From Nitrospira sp. (GTDB lineage Bacteria; Nitrospirota; Nitrospiria; Nitrospirales; Nitrospiraceae): DNA of 33,426 bases. The position numbers were made by a program, and so were the translations under genes. Within the stretch, counting starts at the first letter, position 1, and every line of letters begins with the position of its first letter. The stretch is taken from positions 1-33,426 of the forward strand of contig SWDH01000044.1 of assembly GCA_005116945.1 (NCBI GenBank), written 5' to 3'. The notes under the pieces are model-generated. The model was not told the DNA's origin and made no database searches. It saw only the letters and a program-made list of their open reading frames with translations. Shown in pieces: positions 1 through 32,430 of this stretch.

Positions 1-350
1 CTTCGGTTGGCATAACGTCCTGCACTGATAATGCAGTAAGTGATCTTGATTTGGTATGGAAAAATAAATGGGCGGGCTGCCTTTACTACTAGCAAGACGG
101 GCACCTGCTACTTCCCTCGCATTCTTCCTCGCTTGCTGCCTCCTCATCAGGGATGGAGGCTGATTGATCTTCCACTGCGCGCGACTCATCGAAAGGTCAA
201 GGCTAAGATCGAGAATGCGCTGGGGCAGATTCATCGTTGCTCAACCTGAGCCTCAACCTTAACCTTTTCTGTATTAAGACTGCGCGTTGCGCGAGCACAG
301 AGACTATCCCAATGGCCCTGCCTGCTCCTGTTCTTTCACCCTCTTCTCGG
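1..350. other. Gene-free stretch with repeat fragments
   Basis: No convincing gene is seen. The short open frames here have no ribosome binding site or recognisable family. Two pieces resemble half-arms of the hairpin family described elsewhere. Around 160-190 the sequence GGCTGATTGATCTTCCACT is close to the reverse complement of 8095-8118. Around 274-296 there is a GCGCGTTGCGCGAGCA core, also seen near 14520 and 15575. The stretch reads as decayed accessory DNA. Confidence 0.4.
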
Positions 351-447
351 GAGGGTAGTCTGGTTGATCCTCGATTGCGCGCGTCGAACGAGCACATTCC
401 TATTGTGCGCGTTCCGCGAGCAGGAGGACGACCAGGCTGCCCTCCTC
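351..447 (+). repeat. Hairpin repeat, copy A
   Basis: Imperfect palindrome of about 97 nt. The left outer arm GAGGGTAGTCTGGTTGATCC pairs with the right arm ending ACCAGGCTGCCCTC. The inner arms GTCGAACGAGCACA and TGTGCGCGTTCCGCGAGCA pair around a short loop TTCCTAT. The same apical core recurs at 9057-9146, 15431-15480, 17507-17606 and 26118-26207. It lies 3 bp beyond the stop codon (451-453) of the minus-strand IPT remnant. Confidence 0.85.
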
Positions 448-450
448 TTT

Positions 451-600
451 CTATTTTACGAGGAACGGTTTCGAGTTTTCTCCCGAGGCGGTGGTGACGG
501 ACAGGAGGACCAAGCCTTTTTTCCCGCCGCTTGGCACGGTCGTGGTGATGCTGTCGTCGGTCTGGTGAAACTGAGCTGGCTGGCCCGGGCCGAAGGAGAC
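451..600 (-). pseudogene. IPT/TIG domain C-terminal remnant
   Basis: The minus-strand frame ending at the TAG at 451-453 reads, over its last 45-50 codons, like the end of an IPT/TIG (immunoglobulin-like) domain: a GVSFGP strand, SITTTVPSGGKKG, then LLSVTTASGENSKPF before the stop. That pattern (VPxGxxxG, VxTxxG, SxPF) is typical of IPT/TIG beta-sandwiches in secreted or surface proteins. It is not in the frame of the upstream TPR gene, which continues through the same DNA as low-complexity sequence. I infer that a deletion or frameshift joined two unrelated gene pieces. It is too short to be functional alone. The hairpin repeat begins 3 bp downstream of its stop. Confidence 0.55.
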
Positions 601-1508
601 GCCCCGTAAGCAGGCCGCTGGCTCTTGCGATAGGCCGTGAGCGCCCCCGGCAGATCGCCCTGGCGCACCAATACCTCGCCGATGGCGTGGTGCCCCACGG
701 ATCGATCCCGGTCGTCCGTCGCCGTGTCGGCTGCGGCTTGCACAGCCCGCAGGGCTGCGGGCAGATTTCCGATATCCTGATACAGGCGCCCCAATTCGAC
801 CCAATCCCAATGCACGCCTGGGTCTAGCCGCGTCACCTCTTCGTACCGGGCAATGACCTGGGCGGTGGTGAGCTTGCCCTTGGTCCGGGCTTCTAACGCC
901 AGCGTGGCGATGCGCCGCCCTTCCGCCGCACTTTCGATAGCAGCCCGTTTCTGCCGGGCGGCATCGTGCGCGGTACGCAGGTCGTCCAAGATCGCCAGGG
1001 CGCCCAGTTCATCACCGGCGTTGAAGCGTGCCAACGCCGCGGCCCCTTCTGGCGTGGCCGCGATATCTTCGACCGTTTTTCGGAAGACGGCGATTTCCTG
1101 TGCATAGGCCCGATCATGGCTGGCGAGAGCCGCGACGTACTTCTCTTCCGCGGCGGTGAGGTCGGCTTGATGCTGGGCCGCACCGGTGTGCACCTGGGTG
1201 CGCAGCGCCTCAATCTCTTTGTGTAGAGTCCGCAGCTTGACATCGGCGGCTCGCTCGGCCGCCGCCTGCGTCGCCGAGGCTGCATAGAGCGCGGCAGCCA
1301 CTTCTGCCCGAGGATCGACTGCAGCAGCAGAGGCAGGGGCGGACTGCGCCTGCCCCAGGGCCGCAAGCATGACACACCCGCTCAGCACGAGACCCACAAC
1401 CCAGCGCCCCGTGACCTTACCTCCCACAGCTCTCCCTCTCTTCGACACGACGCTCGTCCACCTCGCAGACGGCTTCGCCGTCAAAGTCGCACGCAACACC
1501 GCCCGCAT
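456..1508 (-). CDS. Secreted TPR protein, probably truncated
   Basis: The ORF encodes 350 residues. Residues 1-35 are basic, followed by a hydrophobic signal segment (VVGLVLSGCVMLAAL, about 37-51) and an Ala-rich cleavage region, so export is likely; a Cys at about 45 could make it a lipoprotein. Residues 65-190 are Ala/Glu-rich and probably coiled-coil. Residues about 220-300 are two TPR units (VHWDWVELGRLYQDIGNLPAALRAV, then IGEVLVRQGDLPGALTAYRKS, shown in pieces). After TAYRKS, about residue 297, the sequence turns into Pro/Ser/Arg-rich low complexity, while another frame shows an IPT/TIG ending. The true gene therefore probably stopped being intact near position 610. GC is higher than in the neighbouring genes. 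The role is unknown; TPRs bind proteins. The start is uncertain because the N-terminus is long and basic. Confidence 0.5.
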   Translation of the reverse strand: MRAVLRATLTAKPSARWTSVVSKRGRAVGGKVTGRWVVGLVLSGCVMLAALGQAQSAPASAAAVDPRAEVAAALYAASATQAAAERAADVKLRTLHKEIEALRTQVHTGAAQHQADLTAAEEKYVAALASHDRAYAQEIAVFRKTVEDIAATPEGAAALARFNAGDELGALAILDDLRTAHDAARQKRAAIESAAEGRRIATLALEARTKGKLTTAQVIARYEEVTRLDPGVHWDWVELGRLYQDIGNLPAALRAVQAAADTATDDRDRSVGHHAIGEVLVRQGDLPGALTAYRKSQRPAYGASPSARASQLSFTRPTTASPRPCQAAGKKAWSSCPSPPPREKTRNRSS

Positions 1509-2157
1509 TGTCCTCCACTCCTAGCCGAGGGAACCGGTTTTAGAGTTGTTTCAGTAGGATGGAGATCGATGCAGATCGTGCACATCCTAGAAATTGGACT
1601 AGGGCACCGATTGCGAGCTACCCTGTGCTGGCACAGGCTTACGCCTGATCAACCTTTCGGCAATCGTTCCTGGATCTGTTGTCATTGGTCATCTACCCTG
1701 CGCAAGATGCAGCGCATTATAGAGGATTTGTTCACCGACACAAGAGAGCGCTTCCAGCAGAATTATTCTTGAGAGTGCTCACTGATCGTTTTCATGCGGT
1801 CGGAAGGATCGCATGAGGACTCCTACACGTGTCACAAGAACCGTGGCTGGACGCTAAGCCGATAGCCGCTAGGCAAGCTAACGAAATGCAGATCTCTTTC
1901 AAATCGCACAGGAGGCTGCTGATGCTGACAAGAATACAGTCCCCATCATGACGGAAGTTGCTAAAAACAGATATATCGAGCAGAAACTGGTTATAGTTCC
2001 GGTTAAGGTTCGGTTGAGGTTTCGGTCCGAGTTCTAAGTATTACATAATCCGACTCAGGCATAGTTCAAGAACGAAATACGCCTGTATATGAAATGGTTT
2101 ATGCGTTCGCATTATCACTCAGGATCAACTATTCTCACTCGTATCATAATCGACTAC
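1509..2157. other. Gene-free decayed region
   Basis: About 650 nt without a supportable gene. The open frame at 1569-1772 has no recognisable family. A plus-strand frame at about 1883-2037 reads ADLFQIAQEAADADKNT and continues to a stop without an ATG near a ribosome binding site; it may be a broken gene piece that I cannot identify. At about 1990-2030 there is a run of GGTT-rich words (GGTTAAGGTTCGGTTGAGG). Its complement-like words recur at about 238-262 and about 4768-4788, suggesting a minor dispersed repeat. Confidence 0.4.
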
Positions 2158-2198
2158 GGATCTGGGGGTTGGGGGTTCAAGTCCCTCCGGGCGCACCA
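2158..2198 (+). tRNA. 3' half of a tRNA-Arg-like gene (partial)
   Basis: The segment shows the end of an anticodon stem (ATCTG), a variable loop, a T-arm GGGGGTTCAAGTCCCTC whose ends pair, then CGGGCGC, A and an encoded CCA ending at 2198. The 3' acceptor strand would need GCGCCCG at a 5' end, as in many bacterial tRNA-Arg genes, but no such 5' half, D-arm or intact anticodon stem lies upstream. It is therefore a fragment, probably the att-site scar left when an element integrated into, or recombined out of, a tRNA-Arg gene. A minus-strand open frame across it is an artefact of tRNA sequence. Confidence 0.65.
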
Positions 2199-2469
2199 CC
2201 TTCCTTGTGCTCCGGGACAATTCTTCAACTAGAGTAAGAACAGAACACACTGTATGGACAACGTCACTATTCCATGGCGTGAGGCGCCGACATGTCCGCA
2301 CAGGCTCGAACATCTTGCGGGCAACTTCCTCTCGAACTGGCAACGGACGACGGCAGACAAACACACAACACTGAATTGGACATACTGAAATCTTGCGACG
2401 TTTTCTTCTTCCATTCTTGGCTCGCCCCCCTTACGATACATCGAATGGACTGCTGAGGGATCTCCTTCT

Positions 2470-4677
2470 ATGTCAGATTTGTTGCTTGATCAACTCGAAC
2501 AACTCGTCCAGGGTCACCACTGGGACCCTCTGGCAATTCTTGGCGCTCATCCGATAAGCCAGGGCGGTTCCCCTGCCGTTGCGATTCGATGTTTCTTGCC
2601 GGAAGCCAACGATGTAGCCCTGCTCCTCAGTGAGCAAGGACCACTGCCCATTCCGATGACACGCATCCATAAGGCTGGCTTATTCGAAACCATTATCCCT
2701 GGGCCGATCGGAATAAGCCCTTATCGATTCCGCATCACCGACCATTGTGGTCAGGTCTCTGACCGGCACGATCCCTATGCCTTCCCGCCGCTCCTCACCG
2801 ACTTTGAACTGCATCTCTTCGCCGAGGGTACCTTCTTCAAAGCCTATGAGACGATGGGCGCTCATCTCCGAACGGTACAGAATATCGCCGGGGTCCATTT
2901 TGTTGTCTGGGCGCCCAACGCTATGCGGGTGAGTGTTGTGGGTGGCTTCAATGCATGGGATGGACGGTGCCATCCCATGACGAACCGCGGAGCGACCGGC
3001 CTGTGGGAACTTTTCATTCCTGAACTCACGGACGGCACACTCTACAAATATGAAATTCGTTCACGCCATCACGACGCACCACTCCTGAAAGCTGATCCCT
3101 ATGCCTTCGCATCGGAGCTGCGGCCCAAGACCGCCTCGATCGTCCGTGAGCTTTCTTCGTACCGCTGGAATGATCAGTCCTGGATGACGGCACGAGCACA
3201 GCAAGATCCGCTTGCCGCACCTCTCTCAATTTATGAGGTCCACTTCGGCTCCTGGATGCGTATACCGGAGGAAGGGAATCGCTGGCTGACCTATACCGAG
3301 CTGGCAAGAAAGCTCATCCCTTATGTGAAAGACATGGGCTATACACATGTTGAGCTGTTACCAATTACAGAGCATCCGTTTGATGGGTCATGGGGCTATC
3401 AGACCACCGGCTATTTCGCTGCCACCAGCCGCCATGGGTCCGCTGAAGACTTTATGGCTTTTGTCGATACGGCCCATCAGGCCGGACTAGGCGTATTGAT
3501 GGACTGGACGCCCGCACATTTTCCAGATGATCCGCATGGACTCGCCCAATTTGACGGCACCCATCTCTATGACCACGCCGACCCACGCCTCGGCTACCAT
3601 CCGGACTGGCACAGCCGCATCTTCAATTACGATCGCGCCGAGGTCCGGAACTTTCTTTTGAACAGCGCGCTTTTTTGGCTGGATCGATACCATATCGACG
3701 GTCTACGGGTCGATGCCGTCGCGTCGATGCTCTATCTCGATTATGGACGGAAAGAAGGAGAATGGATTCCCAATCGCTTCGGCGGGCATGAAAACATCGG
3801 AGCCGTCACGCTGCTAAAAGACTTGAATGTCCTGGTCCACCGTGACTTCCCTGGCGCAATGACCATCGCCGAGGAATCCACGTCTTGGCCGGGAGTCTCA
3901 CGCCCCACCTATGCCGGAGGACTGGGCTTCACATTCAAGTGGAGCATGGGCTGGATGCACGACATGTTGAACTACTTCAGTCTTGACTCTATTCACCGCA
4001 GATTTCACCACGATCAACTGACATTTGGGCTCCTGTATGCCTTCAATGAAAACTTCGTGTTGGTATTGTCGCACGATGAAGTCGTGCATGGAAAACGGGC
4101 GCTACTCGACAAGATGCCCGGCGATGAGTGGCAGCGATTTGCCAATCTCCGTGCCCTCTATGGCTTCATGTACGGACATCCCGGGAAGAAAATGCTATTC
4201 ATGGGTGGAGAGTTCGGGCAATGGCATGAGTGGAACCACGATACCAGCCTGGAATGGCATCTCTGTGATTTCGCACGGCACGCAGGGCTCCAGCGCCTGA
4301 CACGCGACCTGAACCATCTCTACCGCGAAGAGCCCGCGCTGCACGAAGTCGATCACAGCTGGAATGGTTTCCAATGGATCGACTTTTCCGACACAACACA
4401 ATCCGTCATTGCCTTCCTTCGAAAAGCTAAGGATCCTGAGAATGACATCGTATGCCTGTGCAACTTCACCCCTGTTCCTCGCGAGCACTATCGAGTTGGC
4501 GTGCCATACGAAGGTTACTATCGTGAGATCTTAAACAGCGATGCCGCAGCCTATGGGGGCAGTAACATGGGAAATGCCGGGGGCCTTCACAGCAACGCGG
4601 TCCCCTCCCACGGAATGCCCCACTCACTCGCAGTCACACTCCCGCCGTTGTCAGTGTTGTTCCTCAAACGGATCTGA
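2470..4677 (+). CDS. glgB: 1,4-alpha-glucan branching enzyme GlgB
   Basis: Cytoplasmic glycogen branching enzyme (EC 2.4.1.18), GH13 family. It cuts an alpha-1,4 glucan and re-attaches the piece by an alpha-1,6 bond. At 735 residues it is close to the E. coli enzyme (728). It begins with the N1/CBM48 modules (residues about 10-220; HHWDPLAILGAH, VWAPNAMRVSVVGGFNAWDG), followed by the catalytic barrel and a C-terminal beta domain. The catalytic residues are visible: nucleophile Asp415 in DGLRVDAVAS, the acid/base Glu468 in AEESTSWPGVSRP, and Asp536 in LSHDEVVHGK. The ATG at 2470 follows GAGG at 2456-2459. No other glg gene is adjacent, so it seems to be a single-gene unit. A palindromic repeat follows the stop and lies between this gene and the convergent peptidase gene. 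Confidence 0.97.
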   Translation: MSDLLLDQLEQLVQGHHWDPLAILGAHPISQGGSPAVAIRCFLPEANDVALLLSEQGPLPIPMTRIHKAGLFETIIPGPIGISPYRFRITDHCGQVSDRHDPYAFPPLLTDFELHLFAEGTFFKAYETMGAHLRTVQNIAGVHFVVWAPNAMRVSVVGGFNAWDGRCHPMTNRGATGLWELFIPELTDGTLYKYEIRSRHHDAPLLKADPYAFASELRPKTASIVRELSSYRWNDQSWMTARAQQDPLAAPLSIYEVHFGSWMRIPEEGNRWLTYTELARKLIPYVKDMGYTHVELLPITEHPFDGSWGYQTTGYFAATSRHGSAEDFMAFVDTAHQAGLGVLMDWTPAHFPDDPHGLAQFDGTHLYDHADPRLGYHPDWHSRIFNYDRAEVRNFLLNSALFWLDRYHIDGLRVDAVASMLYLDYGRKEGEWIPNRFGGHENIGAVTLLKDLNVLVHRDFPGAMTIAEESTSWPGVSRPTYAGGLGFTFKWSMGWMHDMLNYFSLDSIHRRFHHDQLTFGLLYAFNENFVLVLSHDEVVHGKRALLDKMPGDEWQRFANLRALYGFMYGHPGKKMLFMGGEFGQWHEWNHDTSLEWHLCDFARHAGLQRLTRDLNHLYREEPALHEVDHSWNGFQWIDFSDTTQSVIAFLRKAKDPENDIVCLCNFTPVPREHYRVGVPYEGYYREILNSDAAAYGGSNMGNAGGLHSNAVPSHGMPHSLAVTLPPLSVLFLKRI

Positions 4678-4681
4678 TAAA

Positions 4682-4712
4682 GCAGGATTCTGAAAAAGCC
4701 CGCCGCCTGCTG
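4682..4712 (+). repeat. End fragment of the 3'-palindrome family
   Basis: GCAGGATTCTGAAAAAGCCC starts 4 bp after the glgB stop and matches the terminal arm of the repeat at 32431-32602 (CAGGATGCTGAAAAAGCCC). It is only the end piece; the complete copy follows at 4790. Between them a small inverted repeat GATCAGA (4728-4734) and TCTGATC (4757-4763) could form a hairpin. Confidence 0.5.
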
Positions 4713-4789
4713 ATGGTTAAGATTAGGGATCAGATCAAAGTCTGAAGAAAAAAGAGTCTGATCGTCGCTCAACCTTGACCTTAGCCTCT

Positions 4790-4918
4790 TGCAGGATGCT
4801 CAAAAAGGCCGGCCAGCAAGGCCGCAGGCGAGTCAAAACCGGAGGCGTACCCTCAGGGGTACGTTGAGGATTTCGATGAGCCGAGAACGAAGCTGACGGA
4901 CTTTTTCAGCGTCCTGCG
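4790..4918 (+). repeat. 125-170 nt palindromic repeat, copy 1
   Basis: The outer arms GCAGGATGCTCAAAAAGGCC and GACTTTTTCAGCGTCCTGC are complementary. The centre has a second palindrome, GTACCCTCAGGGGTAC. Related copies lie at 20416-20540 (same orientation) and 32431-32602 (inverted). This copy sits in the convergent gap between glgB and the DUF882 gene. The stem flanked by A/T runs could act as a two-way terminator, but that is inference. Confidence 0.85.
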
Positions 4919-4928
4919 GGGAAGAGGA

Positions 4929-5495
4929 TTACCAGGTCCTGAAAGGACCGCAATCGAGATGGATAAACTTCGCGCGCGGATAGTACCCTACCCCACCGTA
5001 CTGGAGCTTCAATGCGGCATGCCGAATCTCACGAAGCTTGACCCCGGGCATATAGAAATCGACCGCCTGCCCCTGAACATGCAGACTGTGCTGCGCGACT
5101 CGCCGGCTCCGCTTGACAAGCAAGGCATTGTACTCAGGCGACCGATAGCCGGAAATGACGTGAATCTCTCCTGCGCCAGCGAGCGTCTTCTGCACGAGAT
5201 TGACGTGCTCCAATAATTGCACATCGATAGCGGCAACTTCTCCCGTGTGATGGCAGCGTAACACATGATTCACTTCATCCAGCGCCGTCAAGTCATAGTG
5301 CCCCTCGTCATCACGATAGCGAACTCGCAATCGCTCGTTTGTATGCACGTTGAACAAGGTGAGTTCGCCGTCAGGAAGCTCGTTTGCACGCACGGATGCG
5401 GGCAACAACAGCTTGCTCCCGAGCAACAGCAGCCCGACAACAGACGTTTTCAAGAACGTGCGGCGAGTCCAAGACGAGGAATCTGAATGCTGCAA
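4929..5495 (-). CDS. DUF882/YcbK-like peptidase M15, Tat-exported
   Basis: 188 residues, the usual length for DUF882 (YcbK/MepK-like) proteins, which are zinc peptidases of the D-Ala-D-Ala carboxypeptidase-like fold acting on peptidoglycan cross-links in the periplasm. The N-terminus has a twin-arginine signal (WTRRTFLKTS, Arg11-Arg12) and a hydrophobic stretch (residues 16-32, VVGLLLLGSKLL). The catalytic domain shows ISGYRSPEYN (114-123), SLHVQGQAVDF with His139 and Asp146, GGVGYYP (167-173), and the HLD motif with His179 and Asp181. His139, Asp146 and His179 are the expected zinc ligands. It ends CGPFRTW as in typical members. It is convergent with glgB and has no operon partner. Confidence 0.92.
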   Translation of the reverse strand: MQHSDSSSWTRRTFLKTSVVGLLLLGSKLLLPASVRANELPDGELTLFNVHTNERLRVRYRDDEGHYDLTALDEVNHVLRCHHTGEVAAIDVQLLEHVNLVQKTLAGAGEIHVISGYRSPEYNALLVKRSRRVAQHSLHVQGQAVDFYMPGVKLREIRHAALKLQYGGVGYYPRAKFIHLDCGPFRTW

Positions 5496-6328
5496 TGAAC
5501 CGCTCCAGGAGAATGTGCGATGCAGTCTGTCGTCACAGGGAAGCTGCTTGTATCAAAAGCGACCGAGTCAGTCAACTCCTTCATGAAGATTTTTTCGTGT
5601 GAGCAATCTCTTCGGCTCCATCTCGCTTCCGCATGACTGAACATCTATCGGGCTGGGTCTATTCATGCAAGAGAGTCATGGTTCAGTGAACATCTTTGCA
5701 ATATACACAGGTGAGGAGCCGGCCCAATGGTGGTGAGAAGAATGCGCGATCATGCGCATCACGGCATGAAGATTCTTCTCCTTCTGGGAACAGAGCGAGC
5801 GGAAAGCTGTTATAGCAGGTCTTCCCTTTCGCTTGGATGGGGAAAGAGAAAACGATATGGCAGTCGAATCAATAACTGTTCAACTGTAATACACAATCAT
5901 CGACTAGGTGTCTCCTGCCCATCACTCACCGATTCTCACTGTATTATCTGTATTCCTTTGAATACACCTAGGGCTGTTCGGATCCATGGTATCCGGGAGG
6001 GTCCTTCCCTAGATCCCACTCAGCACAACCGGTTCAGGGAACCCAAGAAACTGATTCTACCGCCGCCACGGCACCCATCTCACTTCTTCGTAAAATAGAA
6101 GTGGACGCCGTGCCTGTTCACTATCCAAGCGGCGAATCTATTCATGCACGCTTGTTGGAACGGTGGCCATCATTCTCGAAGATACATTCATGAGCACCAT
6201 GAGCGAGTTCACGCCTCGTATCCTTTTGGATTCTGCGCTGTATCTATACTGATACATGCCGTCATACAGAACACCCCTTTCCCCCCTAAATTTCCTGCTT
6301 TTTCGCCTTCTAATAGCCGAAAATTCTC
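5496..6328. other. Long gene-free upstream region
   Basis: About 830 nt without a gene I can support. The open frame at 5727-6098 has an atypical composition and no domain, and the minus-strand frame at 6138-6449 runs across the PilZ gene; both look accidental. Small palindromes are present, for example GTATC-TATACT-GATAC near 6240-6255. The length upstream of a sigma-54-type promoter leaves room for activator-binding sites, but I identified none. Confidence 0.4.
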
Positions 6329-6344
6329 CGGCACGATAGTTGCT
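6329..6344 (+). promoter_or_regulatory. Sigma-54 (-24/-12) promoter
   Basis: CGGCACGATAGTTGCT matches the RpoN consensus TGGCACG-N4-TTGCW at every defined position except the first. The invariant GG (6330-6331) and GC (6342-6343) are separated by exactly 10 bases. The predicted start of transcription is about 6355, giving a leader of roughly 34 nt before the PilZ start at 6389. A sigma-54 promoter requires an enhancer-binding activator; none is encoded in the window. Confidence 0.75.
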
Positions 6345-6388
6345 GTACAGTACGGACGTCAGCCCGATTTCCCAAAGCAGAGGTATTC

Positions 6389-6763
6389 GTGGAGAATGTG
6401 CTTCCCACTGTCTTTGAAACCAATAGGTGTGCGCCGCACAAAGATCCACGGCTGCATGATCGAAGGCCAGTCTGTCTCCGCGTCGCAGTAGCAGACAAGT
6501 CAGGAATGGCCGAGGGCGAAGTCCTTGATCTGTCCCTTCGTGGATGCGGACTATGCCTGAAAAAACGTCTCGTACGAGGACAGTACCTCTGGCTCAAAAT
6601 ATATCATGTGCAGGGGAAATCAACCCCGGTCTGTGACTTGGTGCGGGTGAAGTGGGTTGAAGACGATCGGGTGGGGGTGGAATTCCTGTATATCGCGCCA
6701 GAGAACCTCCAGCGACTTCACAGAATCTTTGGCGATCAAATTATGTTTGCATTGGAGGACTAA
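6389..6763 (+). CDS. PilZ domain protein (c-di-GMP receptor type)
   Basis: 124 residues, nearly all one PilZ domain. PilZ proteins bind cyclic di-GMP and pass the signal to motility, surface or secretion machinery. The two binding motifs are intact: RxxxR as Arg21-Leu-His-Asp-Arg25, and D/NxSxxG as Asp47-Leu-Ser49-Leu-Arg-Gly52. The beta-barrel end VKWVEDDRVGVEFL (87-100) and a C-terminal helix (about 103-118) follow. No signal peptide or membrane segment is seen. The start is GTG at 6389, with CAGAGG at 6378-6383 just upstream. It lies 34 nt below the predicted sigma-54 start site, and its TAA is directly followed by the ATG of the next gene, so the two are probably translationally coupled. 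Confidence 0.88.
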   Translation: MENVLPTVFETNRCAPHKDPRLHDRRPVCLRVAVADKSGMAEGEVLDLSLRGCGLCLKKRLVRGQYLWLKIYHVQGKSTPVCDLVRVKWVEDDRVGVEFLYIAPENLQRLHRIFGDQIMFALED

Positions 6764-7150
6764 ATGCGCGCGCCTTGCTCCCCGCAGATATCCGTCGAAC
6801 ATATCGAAGCAGGACTCCCCTCCAGTTCGGCTATCGGAATCGATGTCACGAGTATTTTGCTCGAAACGTGGTGCGCGCACGAACTCCAATGGGTCGTCGA
6901 TGAATGCAATATATCTCCCGTCTGGACACAAATCATCCAACATCTTCGAGGGTACCTCGGCACCTTATGGGTGTCAGGTGCTCTGCAAGGTGATAAAGCA
7001 AGAGAGGCTTTTGTTGTCACCTGTGATCCATCCACCATGACCCCGGAGGACATTCTCCATGGTCGTGTGATTTGTCTTGTCGGCGTCGCGCTCGTGACAC
7101 CTGGAGAATTCACCTTCTATCGTATCCACATCCAGCAGAACAAGTCATAG
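6764..7150 (+). CDS. Stand-alone phage tail-sheath C-terminal domain
   Basis: 128 residues. Residues about 42-126 match the C-terminal domain of contractile tail sheath proteins: WVVDECNISPVW, then LRGYLGTLWVSGALQG, AFVVTCDPSTMTPEDI, HGRVICLVGVALVTPGEF and a final strand. In a normal sheath of 400-500 residues this is the conserved part that binds the inner tube and interlocks sheath rings. Here the large N-terminal domains are absent, and residues 1-40 are unlike any sheath I recognise. No tube, baseplate or other tail gene lies nearby. The ATG abuts the PilZ stop, so it is coupled to a c-di-GMP receptor gene. It could be a domesticated adaptor for a contractile injection system elsewhere, or a remnant. 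The domain call is fairly sure; the role is unknown. Confidence 0.72.
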   Translation: MRAPCSPQISVEHIEAGLPSSSAIGIDVTSILLETWCAHELQWVVDECNISPVWTQIIQHLRGYLGTLWVSGALQGDKAREAFVVTCDPSTMTPEDILHGRVICLVGVALVTPGEFTFYRIHIQQNKS

Positions 7151-7400
7151 AGACTCTCTATCTCGCAGCCCCTACCAGCCGCAATACACCTCCTAGTGGG
7201 GTACGTAACCCTATTCAAGGGAAAATATTCGCTAGTCCCATTTCTGAGAAACAAGAAAAACAACCAGCACGTACCTCATTCCTCCTGGTGCATGGAGCCA
7301 TTACAATGGACGCTTCGGAGGAGCTGGCAGTTCTGTCTATTGTGTCTTGGAATCGATGAACGAGGAATAGAGAGTCCTCGCTGCCGTAATTTGTTTCTCC

Positions 7401-7736
7401 TTATCCCAACAAGCCCAAAACGTCGGACTCGCGGACGAGAACAAGTTCTTTATCGTCCAGCTCGACTTCCGTCGTACGGTATTTCTCGTAGAGAACGCGA
7501 TCGCCGGCTTTGAGGACCGTAGGCCTGAAGATCTTTTCCTCTTTTTCCTGTTTCTTTTTGGGCTTACTACCCGACTTTTCTTCAGGTGTTTCCCAGCGCC
7601 CCTTCCCCACGGCCAGAACCATTCCTTCTACGGGCTTCTCCTTCGCCGTGTCGGGGATGAACAACCCCCCGGTAGTTTTTCCCTTAGCTTCCGACGGTTC
7701 AATCAGTGCCCAATCATGTAACGGTTGAATTCCCAT
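7401..7736 (-). CDS. GroES-like co-chaperonin with charged insert
   Basis: 111 residues of the Cpn10/GroES family, which cap the GroEL chamber as a heptamer. It opens MGIQPLHDWALIEPSEA like GroES. The mobile loop (17-33) carries GGLFIPDTAKEK, with LFI in place of the GroEL-binding IVL tripeptide. It ends DDKELVLVRESDVLGLLG. Between GRW (46-48) and LKAGDRVLY (75-83) it has about 15-20 extra residues rich in Lys and Glu (SGSKPKKKQEKEEK), in the region of the GroES roof loop. No groEL follows, so it is an orphan. A strong ribosome binding site AAGGAGA lies 7 nt before the ATG at 7736. It may be a specialised second co-chaperonin. Confidence 0.85.
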   Translation of the reverse strand: MGIQPLHDWALIEPSEAKGKTTGGLFIPDTAKEKPVEGMVLAVGKGRWETPEEKSGSKPKKKQEKEEKIFRPTVLKAGDRVLYEKYRTTEVELDDKELVLVRESDVLGLLG

Positions 7737-8200
7737 GGTGTGTTCTCCTTGTATGGTTCAAGCCCCAGCAACAGGCTACGTCGTTCTGCAGATGGCGTCA
7801 ACCAGCCGAGACGGAGGGGGCCTGGTTACTCCCCTTGCTCGCGCAACGTGCGGTCGCGAATAATGCGAGGGGGCAGACCGACCGTTGTTCTTGCTCGCAG
7901 TGCCCCCCACGATACAGCGATAGTCGCTGTATCGCGCAGTAAAGAACAATCCGCCTACTCCCTCTGGGGAGACTGAAGAATCAGAAAACCCTCGCCGAGG
8001 CTAATGGCAGGTCACGGGAAATCGATTGTCCTGTAATCGGATGATCGGATGGGTGAAAACTATCTGCCCGCAGATAGGCAGGTAACAAACTCGCGCGCAG
8101 TGGAAGATTAATCAGCCCCACCCTACGCGTAGAGCCCTGCATGACTCAAACATCTTTTTCTCCGCTTGCCTCCTAGGTAGCCTCCGATGAACAACTTAAC
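7737..8200. other. Repeat-rich gap upstream of groES-like gene
   Basis: No gene is seen. Besides the hairpin at 7868-7972, a perfect small hairpin TATCTGC-CC-GCAGATA lies at 8061-8076. A half-arm, CTCGCGCGCAGTGGAAGATT, lies at about 8090-8109; its reverse complement resembles 166-190. Confidence 0.4.
7868..7972 (-). repeat. Hairpin repeat, divergent copy (reverse)
   Basis: Read on the minus strand, GGGAGTAGGCGGATTGTTC pairs imperfectly with GAACAACGGTCGGTCTGCCC, and TTTACTGCGCG pairs with TGCGAGCAAGAA as in copy E (26118-26207). The apex differs from the other copies: it is a perfect palindrome, GATACAGCGA-TAG-TCGCTGTATC (7911-7933). At 7810-7860 a partial arm of another copy (GCGCGAGCAAGGGG on the minus strand) adjoins. 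Confidence 0.65.
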
Positions 8201-8392
8201 TTACAGTGAGAGTCCTACGTAATGACCAAGAGGACCTAGTGTGGCTATGGCTAAATGCCCAGGTTTACCAACAGCCTCTCCGTGATAGGCTGCAAGGCAA
8301 TCAGAGGGACGCCCGGGGAAAATATTCGCATGATCGACGATGCGCAAAGCCGATCTGATTGCCTCTATATCGTAATCCATTTGAGCGGACAT
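8201..8392 (-). CDS. Small hypothetical protein (uncertain)
   Basis: 63 residues, beginning MSAQMDYDIEAIRSALRI and ending GPLGHYVGLSL. I do not recognise it. Support is modest: ATG at 8392 with AGGA about 9 nt upstream, codon use that looks like the neighbours, and a position divergent from the response regulator with only 38 nt between the two starts. Residues 5-20 may form a helix. There is no signal peptide or membrane helix. It could be an accidental frame. Confidence 0.35.
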   Translation of the reverse strand: MSAQMDYDIEAIRSALRIVDHANIFPGRPSDCLAAYHGEAVGKPGHLAIATLGPLGHYVGLSL

Positions 8393-8430
8393 GATGCGGT
8401 CCTATCTACGGGCGGAAAGACATCATAATA

Positions 8431-8838
8431 GTGAATCCTCGCTCCATCCTTCTCATAGACGACAACGATCAGATCCGTGCCCTTCTCCGTCGGATACTGG
8501 AAGCAGCCGGGTACTTCGTGATGGATGCGGCCAATGGACGTGAAGGACTCAGGCAGTTCCGGAATACTCCAGTTGATCTCGTGATCACAGATCTGCTCAT
8601 GCCGGACAGTGACGGTTTGGAAGTCACCATGACGTTGCGGCAAGAATCGCCCCACGTAAAGATCATCGCCCTGACTGGAGGCGAGGGAGAGCCTAACCTC
8701 CTCAAGGTGGCAAAACTCCTGGGTGCGCATCGCACGATGAAGAAGCCCCTTGAGATGACCGAATTCCTGAAAGCCGTGCAGCAGGACTTACAGGAAGGCC
8801 CGTTGCAAAAAGAACCTGGGCCACAAGATACTCCGTGA
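8431..8838 (+). CDS. CheY-like single-domain response regulator
   Basis: 135 residues: one receiver domain (about 4-118) plus a short Pro/Gln-rich tail and no output domain. The phosphorylation site is Asp54 in VDLVITDLLMPDSDG. The acidic pocket is Asp10-Asp11 (LLIDDND), the switch residue Thr82 (IALTGG) and the conserved Lys105 (MKKP). A partner histidine kinase or diguanylate cyclase is not in the window, so it is an orphan. The start is GTG at 8431; the purine run GGCGGAAAG at 8411-8419 is somewhat far (11 nt), so the exact start is less sure. It acts in the cytoplasm by phospho-dependent protein contacts. Confidence 0.92.
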   Translation: MNPRSILLIDDNDQIRALLRRILEAAGYFVMDAANGREGLRQFRNTPVDLVITDLLMPDSDGLEVTMTLRQESPHVKIIALTGGEGEPNLLKVAKLLGAHRTMKKPLEMTEFLKAVQQDLQEGPLQKEPGPQDTP

Positions 8839-9056
8839 TCGACGCAGCCGATGGCAATCGATGCGAGAAGAGACCGGAAGGTAGCTGTCATCATCCCGAC
8901 TGGTTCAACTCACGGTAGTTTCCAAAACAGTTACAGCATGTCCCCATGGGGATGGAACTCAGAGACGCCGCGCCCATGGTCATAATAAACAGACTCCCGA
9001 CCCCTTTATTTTCTCCCTACTGCGGGCATCTTCCCAATCCCCTATTTCATTTTCAA

Positions 9057-9146
9057 GGGTAGCCTGGTTGATCCTCAATTGCGCGCGTCGAACGAGCACA
9101 TTCCTATCGTGCGTGTTCCGCGAGCAGGAGGACGACCAGGCCACCC
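9057..9146 (+). repeat. Hairpin repeat, copy B
   Basis: GGGTAGCCTGGTTGATCCTC pairs with GAGGACGACCAGGCCACCC. The apex GTCGAACGAGCACA / GTGCGTGTTCCGCGAGCAGG is nearly identical to copy A. It lies 79 nt before the prfC start and 218 nt after the response regulator stop. The rest of the 8839-9218 gap shows no gene. Confidence 0.85.
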
Positions 9147-9224
9147 GTAGTTTTCTCCTCTCCCAGGTGTTAAAACATACCTTCGATATTCTGTCCGGTA
9201 GCTCGTATAGAAGAAGGAATGTCT

Positions 9225-10850
9225 ATGTCTTTGCCAAGTGAGAAGTCGTCGTCCGATGAACTAGCGAGAGAAGTCGCCCGGCGGCGCACGTTTGCCATTA
9301 TCTCTCACCCGGATGCAGGAAAAACCACGCTGACGGAGAAGCTTCTCCTCTACGCCGGAGCCGTGCATCTCGCCGGAGCCGTGCATGCGCGGTCGCACCA
9401 GCGAGCGTCGAAGTCGGACTGGATGGAGCTGGAGCAGGCACGAGGAATTTCGATCACATCCACTGCGCTCCAATTCGATTATCAGGGAGTGCGGGTGAAC
9501 CTGCTCGACACGCCAGGCCACCAAGACTTCAGCGAAGATACCTATCGCACTCTCATGGCCGTCGATAGCGCGGTCATGGTGCTCGACTGTGCCAAAGGCA
9601 TCGAGCCTCAGACCAAGAAACTCTTCGCTGTCTGCCGCAAACGTAATATTCCGATCATGACCTTCATCAATAAGATGGATCTGCCCGGCCGCCACCCCTA
9701 CGAACTCCTTGAGGAGATCGAACAGACCTTGGGCATGACGGCGGTGCCCTTCAATTGGCCCATCGGGGAAGGAGCCGGGTTTCTGGGGCTCTACGACCTT
9801 CAAGACCCCCAGGTGCTGTTCTTCCAACGGACTCTCCATAACCAGAAACGGGCACCGATGCGGGTGGAAACATTCCCCCATCCAAGCCTAGCCGAGACAC
9901 TCGGAGACGCCTATGGTCCGCTGCAGGAAGAGATCGCCTTACTCACTGGCGCCGGCACGAAATTCGATCGCGACCGTTTTCTCGCCGGCCAACTCACACC
10001 GGTTTTCTTCGGAAGCGCGCTGACGAACTTCGGAGTCGAACCGTTCTTAAACGGGTTTCTCCGACTGGCACCCCCGCCAGGAGCGCGCATGAGCTCGGAG
10101 GGTCCGGTACAGCCGACAGAAGAGAAGTTCTCTGGATTTGTCTTCAAGATTCAGGCGAATATGGATCCGCAACATCGCGATCGGATGGCATTTTTACGTA
10201 TTGTCTCAGGTCGATTTGAAAAAGATATGATGGTTCATCATGCACGCCTAGATCGAAAGATCCGGATGACACGACCGCACCGGCTCTTTGGCCGTGATCG
10301 AGAGACGATCGAGGAAGCCTACCCCGGCGATGTCGTGGGATTCGTTAACCCCGGCCTCTTTGCCATTGGTGACACGCTCAGTTCTGGAAGCCCCCGCTCC
10401 TTCGACGCGATTCCACTCTTTCCCCCTGAATGTTTCGGTGTGCTTCGCAGCCAGGACCTGACAAAGCAGAAGCAGTTTCAGAAGGGGCTCCAGCAGCTCG
10501 AAGAGGAAGGCGTGATGCAGGTGTTCTATTCACCCGATCACGTGCGACGGGAGCCGGTGCTCGCCGCTGTGGGAGAACTCCAATTCGATGTCGTTGCCTC
10601 GCGCCTCGAGAGCGAATATGGAGTGAAGACCACCGTCGAACGAATGCCGTTTGTCCTGGCCCGCTGGGTGACCGGCGACCCCGACGCGATCGCGCGCATC
10701 TACTGGCCGCAGGATACACGCCGTCTTGTCGATAAGGATGGCAGAATGGTGATGCTGTTCGGCTCAGAACGACTACTCGCCTATTGCATGAAAGAATATG
10801 CCTCCCTCAAGTTTCAGTTGCGTGAAGAAATTAAACAAATTGAAACCTAA
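9225..10850 (+). CDS. prfC: Peptide chain release factor 3 (RF3)
   Basis: 541 residues from the ATG at 9225. RF3 is a cytoplasmic translational GTPase that recycles RF1/RF2 from the ribosome after peptide release. The G motifs are intact: G1 SHPDAGKTT (27-35), the G2 region RGISITSTALQF, G3 DTPGHQDFSEDTYRT (95-109) and G4 NKMD (149-152). SKSDWMELEQARGI is typical of RF3 rather than EF-G. The C-terminal RF3 domain (about 390-520) includes GVLRSQDLTKQKQFQKGL. An in-frame ATG at 9219 exists, but the ribosome binding site AAGGA (9214-9218) abuts it, whereas its spacing to 9225 is 6 nt; I therefore prefer 9225. It is a single-gene unit. Confidence 0.96.
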   Translation: MSLPSEKSSSDELAREVARRRTFAIISHPDAGKTTLTEKLLLYAGAVHLAGAVHARSHQRASKSDWMELEQARGISITSTALQFDYQGVRVNLLDTPGHQDFSEDTYRTLMAVDSAVMVLDCAKGIEPQTKKLFAVCRKRNIPIMTFINKMDLPGRHPYELLEEIEQTLGMTAVPFNWPIGEGAGFLGLYDLQDPQVLFFQRTLHNQKRAPMRVETFPHPSLAETLGDAYGPLQEEIALLTGAGTKFDRDRFLAGQLTPVFFGSALTNFGVEPFLNGFLRLAPPPGARMSSEGPVQPTEEKFSGFVFKIQANMDPQHRDRMAFLRIVSGRFEKDMMVHHARLDRKIRMTRPHRLFGRDRETIEEAYPGDVVGFVNPGLFAIGDTLSSGSPRSFDAIPLFPPECFGVLRSQDLTKQKQFQKGLQQLEEEGVMQVFYSPDHVRREPVLAAVGELQFDVVASRLESEYGVKTTVERMPFVLARWVTGDPDAIARIYWPQDTRRLVDKDGRMVMLFGSERLLAYCMKEYASLKFQLREEIKQIET

Positions 10851-11508
10851 CCCGCACGACCGACCCACCATTCGCTAGTCTGATTCAAACAAATATACAG
10901 GCAAACCTCACAGACCACGTAACCAACTGGTTTTCACAGCCTCGCTTGTTATTAACGTACCTAATTGTTCTATCTGTAGGTAAACGAATGCATTGTCTAT
11001 CCTCTTAATAAACATATGCATAAATCATTTATCTTCTCTCATCCCCTGCAACTCCCCTACGCGTAACGATTCTGCCTCTCTCTCTTCATCAGTGATTTCA
11101 AGGTTTTTTGCAGTAACCATCCTTCTCCTGCAACGGTATGAGTCTTGCGTAGCAACCACAGTGATGAGATGAGTTGTTCACCTCATTGATCTCCCCTGAC
11201 AAAGTGTTGTGGAACGCTCAGGACTCAGGGAAGTGCGGGCTGCAGGCCGTCGTAGAAACTCAGCACAGTCCGCAGACTGTTTAATAGACCGTCCATCACG
11301 CCCATCAGGGGGCAAAGAGACAATGCATCCTTCTCGCTGTACGCGATTGCCTCTGAGTGAAGCGAGAACACCGCTGGCAGCCTGTTTAACAGACTGCCTG
11401 GATCACCGAGTTAGTTGAACAATCCGACATAGACACCTGTGCATGAGAAATCGCTTTCCCCTGGAAATGGTCTGCGAGCTGCAGAGGAAAAGGAAGAGGG
11501 GCATCCGT
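10851..11508. other. Gap with nested inverted repeats
   Basis: No gene is seen between prfC and the BACON protein. 10860-11200 is AT-rich and shows nothing I can name. 11270-11402 is structured. GCAGACTGTTTAATAGACCG (about 11269-11288) and GCAGCCTGTTTAACAGACTG (about 11378-11397) are each near-palindromes and can also pair with each other. Inside them TTCTCGCT (11331-11338) and AGCGAGAA (11361-11368) form a perfect 8-bp stem. It could be a leader structure for the following gene or another repeat. Confidence 0.4.
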
Positions 11509-12759: not shown

Positions 12760-12883
12760 CCGTCCCACTCGCTACGGCTGGCCTGCAAAGCATGGCCGCC
12801 CAGCGCGAACGATTTGGTTTTTGGATGGATTGGGGGGTGCCTTGTGAATCAGATATTGAGCGAGGCGAGGTGATACGCACGAA

Positions 12884-14449: not shown

Positions 14450-14570
14450 TGCCGCCTCTTCTTCAGAATCGATGCTGTATGGACATCGTCACGTCGAATA
14501 AAAGTCTTCTGAGACCGCGAGCTGCGCGAGCACAGGAGATCGACAGACAGACACACCGCCCCCTCGCCCT

Positions 14571-15239: not shown

Positions 15240-15343
15240 CACTTTATCTCCAATGAATCGGGATCACACATCCACATCGGGGAAACACAGTTCTCGTCAC
15301 TTATCGGAATCTCAGGTCGATGGCAGCTCGATACATCATCCAT

Positions 15344-15395
15344 CCAAGCCTGCTCGTTTCTCTTTACAGGAGGTGGCTGACGGTTTCCCCGACTG
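15344..15395 (+). repeat. Direct repeat, first unit
   Basis: CCAAGCCTGCTCGTTTCTCT followed by TTACAGGAGGTGGCTGACGG and TTTCCCCGACTG is repeated almost exactly at 15494-15544. There it forms the left arm of a complete hairpin; here the right arm is missing, so this is a half-element. Confidence 0.8.
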
Positions 15396-15430
15396 CTCGG
15401 GTGACCACAATCTCCCCATGTTCATGTTAA

Positions 15431-15480
15431 AGGGTGGCCTGGTTGATCCTCGATTGCGCGCGTCGAACGAGCACATTCTG
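15431..15480 (+). repeat. Hairpin repeat, truncated copy C
   Basis: GGGTGGCCTGGTTGATCCTC followed by GATTGCGCGCGTCGAACGAG and CACATTC equals the left half of copies A and B. The sequence then breaks at the loop and continues into the next repeat, so this copy lost its right arm. Confidence 0.8.
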
Positions 15481-15493
15481 ATCAATGATTATT

Positions 15494-15617
15494 CCAAGCT
15501 TGCTCGTTTACGTTACAGGAGGTGGCTGACGGTTTCCCCGACTGCGCCCGTCCAACGAGGGCCTTCTGAGGCCGCGCGTTGCGCGAGCAAAGGGGAACCG
15601 TCAGCTACCTCCCTCCT
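15494..15617 (+). repeat. Hairpin repeat overlapping the DEAD helicase stop
   Basis: The left arm AGGAGGTGGCTGACGGTTTC (from 15517) is complementary to the right arm GGAACCGTCAGCTACCTCCC (ending 15617). The inner part GCGCCCGTCCAACGAGGGCC / GAGGCCGCGCGTTGCGCGAG keeps a relative of the family core. The right arm supplies the last codons and the TAG stop of the minus-strand DEAD-box helicase gene. Confidence 0.85.
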
Positions 15618-17371
15618 CTTGGCTGCTCCAGAAATAATCTCACTGCGACCTTCTGTCCTTTGATTCTCGTCCGACTCAGAGTCTGAATAATCTCCCGTGC
15701 CAACACTTCAGGCACTTCCACCAGCGAAAATCGATCCATGACTTCGACAGCACCGATGACATTGGAGTTGAGCCCGGCCTCATTGGCGATTGCCCCGACG
15801 AGGTCGCCGGGCCTGATGCCTGCTTCCCTGCCCGCCCCAATATACACCTTGGCCATCCCCGGCGTTCGTCCGCCGCGACCAGGCGCACTGAACGGTCTGC
15901 CCTGTGCCTCTCTCGGCATCATGCCACCCGTCCGCCCGCGAGGATCACCCATGGGACGGTGCCCCATCGATGACCGCTCCGGCGGCCTATTTGATACAGC
16001 TGGAATATCGACTTCCTTCCGCTCCCCACCCTGCATGCGAAAGACAAGTTTCATCGCAGCCGCTGCCACATCCAGGGGATCTCCCTGTTCGGCACAGGAT
16101 GCGACCACTGCCCGGAAGAGGTCCAAGTCACCGGCGGCAAGCACGTCCTCAATCGCGCCTTTAGTTCGTGCAAGACGCTTCGTGCGAAGGTCGGCAATGG
16201 TCGGCACCGGCGTCACGACAATTTTGGCTTTTGTAAGCTGCTCGATATTCCACAACAACCGCTGCTCGCGCGGGTCGAGTACAGTGATCGCCGCCCCTTC
16301 ACGCCCGGCCCGCCCAGTCCGTCCAATCCGATGCACATAGCCTTCAGGAGACGTGGGCAGGTCGTAGTTCACCACATGGGAGACAGAAGGAATATCCAAC
16401 CCCCGAGCCGCCACATCGGTCGCCACGAGGAGTTCGGTCTGTCCGGCCCGAAACGAATTCATCACCCGATCACGCTGGGGCTGATTCATTCCGCCATGGA
16501 TCGCTTCGGCTCGATGCCCGCGGTCTGTCAACATGGCCGTCAGCTCGTCGACTTCGATACGCGTGCGACAGAACACGAGCGCCGACTTCGGAGCTTCCAT
16601 GTCCAAAATACGAGCCAAGGCCATCACTTTATGTTGTCGAGCGACAATGTAGGCGGTCTGATGCACCCGTGGCGCAGCGCCCGCCTTGAGCGGCTCTTTG
16701 GCAATCTTGATTTCGACCGGATCCTTCAGATGGCGTTTGGCAATGGACGCAATGCGGGCCGGCATGGTCGCAGAAAAGAGCGCCGTCTGCCGCTCTTTGG
16801 GTGTCTGTTCAAGAATGGCGTCCAGATCCTCGGCAAATCCCATGTCGAGCATCTCATCGGCCTCGTCGAGGACAACCATTTGCACCGTCTTGAGCTGCAA
16901 GGTTTTTCGGCGGATATGGTCAAGCGCCCGCCCCGGCGTCGCCACGATGACATCGACCCCGCGCCTGAGAGCCTGGAGCTGTAGACCCATCGCCTGTCCG
17001 CCATACACCGGAAGGACGGAAATTTTTAATTCCTTGCCATAGCGGGTCACGGCTTCGCCGACCTGTATGGCCAACTCTCTAGTCGGTACCAGGATCAGCG
17101 CGGAGGGGCAGCGACGTGCTGAATGAGCAATACGCTGGAGCAACGGCAGGGTGAACGCCGCAGTCTTGCCGGTTCCGGTTGCGGCTTGGCCCAAGAGATC
17201 CCGGCCTGCCAACAAGGGAGGGATGGCCTCACGCTGGATCGGCGTGGGCTCTTCATAGCCGAGCGTATCAAGGGTGGTCAGTAGGGCCGCTTCCAACCCC
17301 AGCGCGGCGAAACCGGGAGAAAAACCCTTCGCCTGCGTTTCCGTCGATGGGTGAGTGCTGTTAGGTTTCAT
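15605..17371 (-). CDS. DEAD-box RNA helicase with DbpA-type RNA-binding domain
   Basis: 588 residues from the ATG at 17371. ATP-dependent RNA helicase of the DeaD/CsdA group, acting in ribosome assembly, mRNA turnover and cold adaptation. The Q motif is GYEEPTPIQ (38-46), motif I AATGTGKT (63-70), Ia PTREL (96-100), II DEAD (169-172), III SAT (200-202) and VI HRIGRTGR (347-354). A Gly/Arg/Pro-rich linker (about 460-505) leads to a DbpA-like RNA-binding domain (about 506-580, KVYIGAGREAGIRPGDLVGA). An upstream in-frame TTG (17407) lacks a ribosome binding site. The last three codons and the stop lie in a palindromic repeat, so the C-terminal EQPRGGR may have been shaped by repeat insertion. 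Confidence 0.94.
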   Translation of the reverse strand: MKPNSTHPSTETQAKGFSPGFAALGLEAALLTTLDTLGYEEPTPIQREAIPPLLAGRDLLGQAATGTGKTAAFTLPLLQRIAHSARRCPSALILVPTRELAIQVGEAVTRYGKELKISVLPVYGGQAMGLQLQALRRGVDVIVATPGRALDHIRRKTLQLKTVQMVVLDEADEMLDMGFAEDLDAILEQTPKERQTALFSATMPARIASIAKRHLKDPVEIKIAKEPLKAGAAPRVHQTAYIVARQHKVMALARILDMEAPKSALVFCRTRIEVDELTAMLTDRGHRAEAIHGGMNQPQRDRVMNSFRAGQTELLVATDVAARGLDIPSVSHVVNYDLPTSPEGYVHRIGRTGRAGREGAAITVLDPREQRLLWNIEQLTKAKIVVTPVPTIADLRTKRLARTKGAIEDVLAAGDLDLFRAVVASCAEQGDPLDVAAAAMKLVFRMQGGERKEVDIPAVSNRPPERSSMGHRPMGDPRGRTGGMMPREAQGRPFSAPGRGGRTPGMAKVYIGAGREAGIRPGDLVGAIANEAGLNSNVIGAVEVMDRFSLVEVPEVLAREIIQTLSRTRIKGQKVAVRLFLEQPRGGR

Positions 17372-17506
17372 ACAATATTGCGATGGCCTTTCTGCTCTGT
17401 ATGCCAATCAATTCATTATCGGACCATGACCGTGTTGCTGCTAATAATCCTTCCAAGCTCGCTCCTACGCTCGCTCCTAAGGGATGACCAACTGCCCTGC
17501 GGGCTG

Positions 17507-17606
17507 TGCATAGGGCGGTTGGGAGATTTCTATTGCGGCCGTCGAACGAGCACAGTTTCATCGTGCGCGTTCCGGGAGCAGGGAAATCTGTCAACCGCCC
17601 TATGCA
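17507..17606 (+). repeat. Hairpin repeat, copy D
   Basis: A 100-nt palindrome. TGCATAGGGCGGTTG (17507-17521) is perfectly complementary to CAACCGCCCTATGCA (17592-17606). The next parts GAGATTTC and GGAAATCT also pair. The apex GTCGAACGAGCACA / CGTGCGCGTTCCGGGAGCA is the shared family core. It ends 5 bp from the stop codon of the small gene at 17612. Immediately left (about 17454-17480) TCCAAGCTCGCTCCTACGCT resembles the unit at 15494. Confidence 0.88.
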
Positions 17607-17611
17607 CCATC

Positions 17612-17809: not shown

Positions 17810-17876
17810 ACGTCTGTTACCGTTTCGCCTCGTTCACGAGTCTGATAGAGTCTCTCGCATGCAGAAGGAACCTATC

Positions 17877-20393: not shown

Positions 20394-20415
20394 TCCTCCT
20401 CAGAAGCACACTCCC

Positions 20416-20540
20416 GCAGCCTACTCAAACAGTCTGTCCAGCAAGGCCGCAGCGAGTGAAGGCCCGAGGCGTACCCTTGTGGTACGTTGAGGGTCTGAAC
20501 GATGCGAGATCGAAGCTGGCGAGCTGTTTCAGCAGCCTGC
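20416..20540 (+). repeat. 125-170 nt palindromic repeat, copy 2
   Basis: The outer arms GCAGCCTACTCAAACAG and CTGTTTCAGCAGCCTGC pair. The interior CCAGCAAGGCCGCAGCGAGT, GAGGCGTACC-CTTGT-GGTAC and GAACGATGCGAGATCGAAGC parallel copy 1. It fills the convergent gap between hrpB and the beta-grasp gene and touches the stop codon of the latter (20540-20542). Confidence 0.85.
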
Positions 20541-25836: not shown

Positions 25837-26277
25837 CCATTTATCCCCAACATCTTCTTAATTCGAATTTGGAACGGGTAACTTTTCAAAGCAAAAGGAT
25901 TTCCCTTCGTCAAACTTGACTTGTCTTGCGACCAAACACTTGGGTGGCCGGCTCATATTCCCGTCCGCTATTGGAATTGTAGGCTTGGGTAACTAGAAGG
26001 CAAGGACTTCTTCTGTTCCGCTCACACCACTACGCGCCTCTTTCTCACCCGCCCCCCACTGGCACGCCGAGACGTGCCCAGGTGAGGGCCTCCAATCCTC
26101 ATTACCTCTCATCAAGTGAGTGGCTGAGGCTGCCCTTTACTGCGCGCATCGAACGAGCACATTCTGATCGTGCGCGTTCTGCGAGCAAGAAGGGCATCTG
26201 GCCGCTCCCCTCCTTCCTCCTGGCAGACGTTTTCCGCATCCTGCTAAGATGCGACCCATAGCCAGGAGCACGCGCTT
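25837..26277. other. Divergent intergenic region
   Basis: About 440 nt between the divergent TPR and dehydrogenase genes. It holds hairpin copy E and otherwise nothing I can name as a gene. AGGAG at 26263-26267 is the ribosome binding site of the dehydrogenase. Confidence 0.4.
26118..26207 (+). repeat. Hairpin repeat, copy E
   Basis: GAGTGGCTGAGGCTGCCCTT pairs with AAGGGCATCTGGCCGCTC. The inner arms TGCGCGCATCGAACGAGCAC and GTGCGCGTTCTGCGAGCA form the shared apex around TTCTGATC. The outer stem is unrelated in sequence to copies A/B and D but fully self-complementary apart from a few mismatches. Confidence 0.85.
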
Positions 26278-32429: not shown

Positions 32430-32430
32430 A

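Follow-up and report, generated by a model that had tools for sequence, protein, structure and literature searches.

Hairpin repeats of Nitrospira with a common apex and exchanged outer stems, often placed antisense at gene ends

What keeps a long hairpin stem paired when both of its strands are exchanged from copy to copy? The question arises at the left end of a 33,426-nt stretch of Nitrospira DNA (contig SWDH01000044.1, the whole of which is called here the window), in which an earlier note, made from the letters alone, had named five hairpins with one fixed apex and four unrelated outer stems, each complementary to its own partner. All five are present, all lie on the + strand and each folds as a hairpin in the way described. 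Of the half copies that the note had also mentioned, six were located, five on the + and one on the - strand. The features of the window are as follows.

158..184, + strand: left half copy, type C
277..300, + strand: right half copy
350..445, + strand: complete hairpin, outer stem type A, core 374-422
7868..7972, - strand: copy with a known outer stem, apex partly replaced by the palindrome ATACAGCGACTATCGCTGTAT (by-eye comparison with the copy at C22:428029)
8091..8117, - strand: left half copy, type C, on the opposite strand
9057..9146, + strand: complete hairpin, type A, core 9078-9126
14512..14535, + strand: right half copy
15364..15396, + strand: left half of an older type C copy
about 15430..15483, + strand: left half copy, type A, cut close to the apex loop
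15518..15612, + strand: complete hairpin, type C, core 15541-15589
15605..17407, - strand: DEAD-box helicase gene with a DbpA domain (Pfam DEAD and DbpA), its last codons and stop forming part of a hairpin stem
17506..17607, + strand: complete hairpin with a rare outer stem of 23 outer pairs, core 17532-17580
26118..26207, + strand: complete hairpin, type B, core 26139-26187

The hairpin at 350..445 is antisense to the gene on its right and lies a few bases from that gene's stop codon, while the 3′ arm of the hairpin at 15518..15612 includes the stop (CTA, read as TAG) of the helicase gene 15605-17407(-). In the stretch 15364-15612 the left half of a C copy, the left half of an A copy and a complete hairpin of type C follow one another. 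The note's reverse divergent copy at 7868-7972 held good for its outer stem, which is known from elsewhere, but not for its apex, and here the sole match of the core model described below (7836-7901, - strand) was not significant (E=0.57). No Rfam family matched the window at gathering score.

Other sequences of the window were noticed in passing. The open reading frame 456-1508 is weakly TPR-like and its last approximately 55 codons match relatives that are probably read in the other frame; this other frame (451-810, minus) ends in ASGENSKPFLVK, resembling the end of a paralog at C25:191851, ASGESSKPFLVK, and a frameshift near position 600 is likely. A second, larger hairpin family (GCAGGATGCTGAAAAAG ... 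CTTTTTCAGCATCCTGC) occurs at 4787-4917, 20411-20540 and 32427-32606. It also ends at stop codons (TAG-CAGGATGCTG...), and in places core hairpins are nested in it. A third, short element (TTCTCACCCGCCC...CGCCGAGACG...) was seen at 26042-26078 and 32542-32578, as well as at C32:67512, C22:10036, C22:412811 and C32:88433; by eye, four core hairpins contain it within the left strand of their apex, at nearly the same position each time.

The genome from which the window comes (3.39 Mb in 46 contigs, 82% complete) contains the hairpin, which is about 90-100 nt long, in high copy number. The core GTCGAACGAGCACA gave 54 matches with at most one mismatch, and the reversed pattern gave 1. From 21 copies we built a covariance model of the 49-nt apical core, and it matched at least 134 places at E≤0.1, which is a lower bound because 150 of the 2988 candidates were scored. 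This is far beyond the few copies that, according to the earlier note, would have spoken against a repeat family. The 49-nt apex is irregular, with conserved bulges and mismatches. It is common to the copies as had been claimed, but it is not invariant, since its variants covary (GTCGAAC/GTTCCGC, ATCGAAC/GTTCTGC, GTCCAACGAGGGCC/GGCCGCGCGTTG).

Exact matches to the degenerate core were found in at least 114 stretches, and the 80 matches listed all carry the names Nitrospira, Nitrospiraceae, Nitrospirae or Nitrospirota. The core matched all 32 genomes of the genus and all five from other genera of the family, and was present in 2 of 24 genomes from other families of the order with one match each. 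Under stricter filters, 31 of 148 genomes of a phylum sample had a match, all of them from the window's family; among the non-matching genomes listed, one (G192) belongs to that family. The element is thus almost confined to one family, which by the names of the records should be Nitrospiraceae. A search of the Nitrospira literature for repeats, palindromes and stem-loops, with subscription journals mostly outside its reach, retrieved, among the papers listed, no description of such a hairpin family. The table row for Nitrospira moscoviensis in the RepRanger work, as far as that source was accessible, gives large counts of palindromic elements, and counts alone, without family, polarity or position (PMC12306157); one Nitrospira genome paper mentions palindromes, in its accessible text for CRISPR.

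To evaluate the outer stems, we took the flanks of all 134 copies, anchored at the core, and scored their pairing with no bonus for wobble pairs. Arms reached a median score of 13.25 with their own partner and of 4.0 with swapped ones, the 95th percentile of this control being 11.5, and 107 of the 134 copies scored 10 or more. Chance inverted repeats are thereby excluded, and the complementarity of each stem to its own partner, as the note had it, stands. The stem is of nearly fixed length, its left arm measuring 21-27 nt in 103 of these 107 copies. We left the 18 of 134 copies that scored below 8 out of the clustering, the counts of mismatches, fold stability, stem-base conservation and T-runs, and the tests of double changes. 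The remaining 116 fell into 12 clusters of outer stems (31, 30, 16, 14, 9, 3, 3, 3, 3, 2, 1 and 1 copies), a number that hangs on the chosen cut-off; in place of the four unrelated stems seen in the window, the whole genome thus holds about 12. Right arms from other clusters never paired as well as the copy's own for 96 of these 116 copies (86 of 134 over all). The copy at C23:61124 is a hybrid that combines a left arm of type C with a right arm of type A. When the clusters are compared, the stem base has a bias to purines on the left and pyrimidines on the right and nothing else, reaching at most 0.9 bit when weighted by cluster, and the flanks on both sides of the hairpin are pyrimidine-rich on the + strand.

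The same behavior was observed elsewhere: in other genomes 137 of 162 further copies scored at least 10, with 10% in the swapped control, these copies being drawn from the at least 114 loci recovered by a scan for the exact core and so not a random sample. A statistical test of covariation, which the note had proposed, gave a divided answer. Changes on both sides of a pair exceeded all shuffles in clusters 8, 9 and 6 (23, 19 and 20 pairs; shuffle maxima 17, 13 and 15), but in clusters 7 and 3 (5 and 7) did not rise above the maxima (5 and 7); the shuffles, 300 for each of the five clusters, ignore relatedness.

Mismatches within the outer stems are strongly unequal. In the genome of the window we counted 176 G.T or T.G vs. 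33 A.C or C.A mismatches, and in the other genomes 199 G.T vs. 43 A.C (20 of the 162 copies excluded). As a strand-blind palindrome would give equal numbers, this excess indicates that the folded form is one strand of defined polarity. With RNA parameters the + strand folds more stably in 95 of 116 copies (2 ties), and with DNA parameters in 113 of 116; the folded form may be RNA or single-stranded DNA. The surplus of G.T supports selection on the folded strand, though it could in part reflect strand-biased deamination.

The copies have a defined place with respect to genes. According to a simple codon-score gene call, 131 of the 134 are intergenic, and the gene on their 3′ side lies on the opposite strand in 95 cases and on the same strand in 32. 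The 3′ end of the hairpin was within 45 nt of the stop of the opposite-strand gene in 60 of 96 cases (0-9 nt in 26), whereas on the 5′ side a sense gene had its end that close in 2 of 30. For 105 complete hairpins of other genomes with 700 nt available on each side, a long frame ended antisense at the 3′ side in 45 and sense at the 5′ side in 4, vs. 6.1% for random positions. As the folded strand is antisense to the adjoining gene, the gene's own RNA would carry the complement, which folds less well. At C14:40104, C22:508054 and C22:150714 three different genes end, by the simple gene call, at a TGA within the type C 3′ arm, so that insertions seem to have re-set gene ends.

We followed three genes through the 32 genomes of the genus: the DEAD-box helicase, a SnoaL-like gene (Pfam SnoaL_3) beside the copy C22:86231, and a gene which we take to be RadA-like, its Pfam matches being weak ones to ChlI, Lon_C and KaiC-type alone. 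A complete hairpin stands at the stop of the helicase in 20 of the 25 orthologs read past it, with outer stems of types B, C and D all occurring, and 16 of the 25 SnoaL-like loci have a complete hairpin within the limit, again of several types. A hairpin at the stop could thus not be scored in 5 of 25 and 9 of 25 loci, respectively, although two of these nine have one that lies a single base past the limit. The end of the SnoaL-like protein, HHGSAVMG and stop, is identical in 23 of 25 rows with or without the element; of the exceptions, L390 ends in R and L394 is not a true gene end. In 16 of 16 SnoaL-like and 18 of 20 helicase hairpins scored, the stem extends past the stop and takes in the gene's last codons. 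Pairing over the stop and six coding nucleotides was 0.95 and 0.84, vs. 0.48 and 0.50 for left arms from other loci, and none of 2000 samples was as high at either gene. The left arm of the SnoaL-like copies mostly tracks codon and stop use: ATGGGG-TAG occurs with ATGGGGTGG or TAG in the left arm, ATGGGC-TGA with ATGGGCTGA and ATGGGA-TAA with ATGGAATGA, though exceptions exist.

The third gene behaves differently. Of 25 RadA-like orthologs read as far as the stop, only that of the window's genome has a complete copy abutting it, so that this site shows the presence and absence among orthologs by which MITEs are recognized. Two relatives of approximately 98% and 93% identity (L408 and L421) have a copy of the core no more than about 100 nt away, in a nested arrangement with the second hairpin family; at the remaining stops there is the second family, in several relatives, or other sequence, and by eye L415 and L417-L420 have a hairpin with another tip. 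Among the fetched relatives we found no cleanly empty site with a duplicated target; their intergenic stretches were replaced or deleted instead. We also rejected the helicase loci of G001 and G011 as filled counterparts of an empty site in the element-free G016: CCGCTCTTG stands beside the stop in all three, and as the short match in G016 is equally a possible remnant, the comparison is no proof of insertion. Near the site of C14:40104, relative L201 has a bare palindrome, GGGGAGTGGCCACTCCCC, where a B-type outer stem was expected; it may be a hairpin collapsed through deletion of the apex.

A pair of close relatives bears directly on how stems change. The genes at the copy C22:268001 and at its counterpart in L150 have protein ends that are about 97% identical, and at the same stop codon they carry hairpins with a related core and unrelated stems; as such relatives were fetched for holding the core, the pair is silent on how often the site is filled. 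Unrelated stems at nearly identical gene ends require replacement of the copy or re-writing of an arm. The earlier proposal of selection on a folded element is therefore borne out as regards a conserved folded single strand, but stepwise selection alone is insufficient.

Copies are also nested in one another. When the stretches from the window's genome were scanned by pattern for half copies of like strand, 27 of 126 complete copies had one within 160 nt, with a left half before in 11 cases, a right half after in 11 and both in 5. At C14:44120 and C22:127700 the outer halves are clearly complementary by eye, that is, a complete copy lies in the apex loop of another; in the other three cases of this layout the outer halves had no clear mutual match. 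One loop insertion, at C14:44120, has CTTC on both sides as judged by eye.

The reading that we favor, at about even odds (roughly 0.5), is that of a mobile hairpin, non-autonomous and strand-specific, in which the apex would serve as the recognition signal while the outer stem would be rebuilt locally and then held to folding by selection. The irregular 49-nt apex would be read by a protein, and the active form would be the single strand antisense to the neighboring gene. A new copy would come to lie either with its 3′ end directly at a stop codon or within the apex loop of a copy already there. Carrying little sequence signal, the outer stem would need only to pair over about 24 nt; one arm could be copied into the other at the site, by template switching or snap-back synthesis, which could pull in the last codons of the gene, and selection would then keep the stem foldable, tolerating G.T but not A.C.

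Several large clusters share both stems, which indicates that many copies moved with their own stem. Point mutations with compensation can shift a stem within a cluster, but would hardly replace 24 bp between close relatives, and replacement of copies, as seen in nesting and in the several stem types at a single site, is thus part of the process. That left arms match the codons of the adjoining gene in two cases, the helicase and the SnoaL-like gene, suggests copying of one arm from the other. On the other hand, in the window's genome the 26 copies near stops showed no excess of pairing with coding sequence (5.15 vs. 5.35 pairs in a swapped control, a weak one as it mixes copies with different stop positions), which counts against arm copying as a general rule. 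Most stems there extend a constant distance from the core regardless of where the stop is, and some matches to gene ends may be inherited from one old insertion and not copied anew. One-step inverted copying by template switching can create or mend a stem, according to the accessible part of a study which describes it for RNA genes and not for an interspersed, stop-codon-anchored repeat (PMC8794818).

The main rival to a mobile element with local re-writing and selection is a functional RNA at gene ends, which we regard as rather unlikely. Here the + orientation, antisense RNA would fold and either block or end antisense transcription or protect RNA ends. Stems would vary since only their pairing matters, and the tolerance of G.T is what RNA predicts; the strict position and orientation at stop codons, the occupation of most orthologs of the helicase and SnoaL-like genes at the same site, the pyrimidine-rich flanks of the + strand and a T-run 3′ of the stem on that strand in 23 of 116 copies agree with it as well. 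Yet whole stems differ between orthologs whose protein ends are nearly identical, the RadA-like stop is occupied by a complete copy in the window's genome alone, and nesting and half copies resemble insertion. The other 93 of the 116 copies lack a T-run on the + strand.

More doubtful is a mechanism in which the apex alone is the element and about 24 nt of target beside the stop become one arm, with an inverted copy as the other. If such an inverted target-site duplication were true, it would be a new kind of mobile DNA, each copy wearing the end of its host gene as a stem.

Mobilization as a REP/REPIN element by a RAYT (Y1) transposase has a slim chance. The family is like REPs in being intergenic, in its more than 100 imperfect hairpins per genome and in being probably non-autonomous, and the window's genome has three Y1_Tnp matches. 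The hairpin of 90-100 nt differs, however, in its conserved apex and changing stem and in having no link to Y1. An association with a RAYT/Y1 transposase, for which the earlier note had advised looking, failed to appear: Y1 gave no match in 13 of 32 genomes, and these include G001, G009 and G018, which at 99% completeness gave 85, 96 and 97 core hits of 99 scored. The core was present in 2 of 31 Y1 loci (90 kb), no more than its density in the window's genome predicts. On these counts we rejected a RAYT as the mobilizer. The Y1_Tnp matches of the window's genome include an intact gene of 223 aa, presumably RAYT-like, and a broken paralog (L032 and L033), and the 1.5-kb flanks of both were free of core matches. 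The stem base has no conserved 4-nt head, while in REPs such a head, GT(A/G)G, is conserved and the repeats flank RAYT genes, as stated in the accessible portion of PMC2817692. With the Y1_Tnp and integron integrase profiles no mobilizing enzyme was found in the 32 genomes. The repetitive hairpin-forming elements of sponge mitochondria resemble the Nitrospira family as mobile-looking hairpins, single and in tandem, but in the accessible text their stems are conserved and substitutions fall in the loops, which is the reverse of the Nitrospira arrangement (PMC2800124).

Ordinary intrinsic terminators of the adjacent genes would also be strong hairpins directly 3′ of stop codons, but this is very improbable and we rejected it: only 2 of 116 copies have a T-run 3′ of the stem on the gene strand, and it is the opposite strand that folds better. 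A terminator scan of window positions 1-20000 gave 19 sites and none of the four complete copies there, though with its loops of 3-8 nt it would miss many. Like these hairpins, the attC sites of integrons fold on the antisense strand beside a stop codon and keep structure while sequence varies, and they have conserved boxes at the hairpin base, arrays and an integrase; membership is scarcely credible and is refuted by an integron integrase above the curated cut-off in 2 of 32 genomes, by conservation at the tip instead of basal R boxes, and by an RYYYAAC-like box whose AAC changes together with its partner (GAAC/GTTC, GAGC/GCTC).

The family offers a natural experiment on how pairing persists in long stems whose sequence is exchanged, under a common apex and with a dozen or so self-complementary stem families. 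Stop codons and synonymous codons of host genes covary with non-coding arms, and selection vs. copying by template switch becomes directly testable. For Nitrospira, the hairpins are a high-copy feature of the genome that bears on where genes end.
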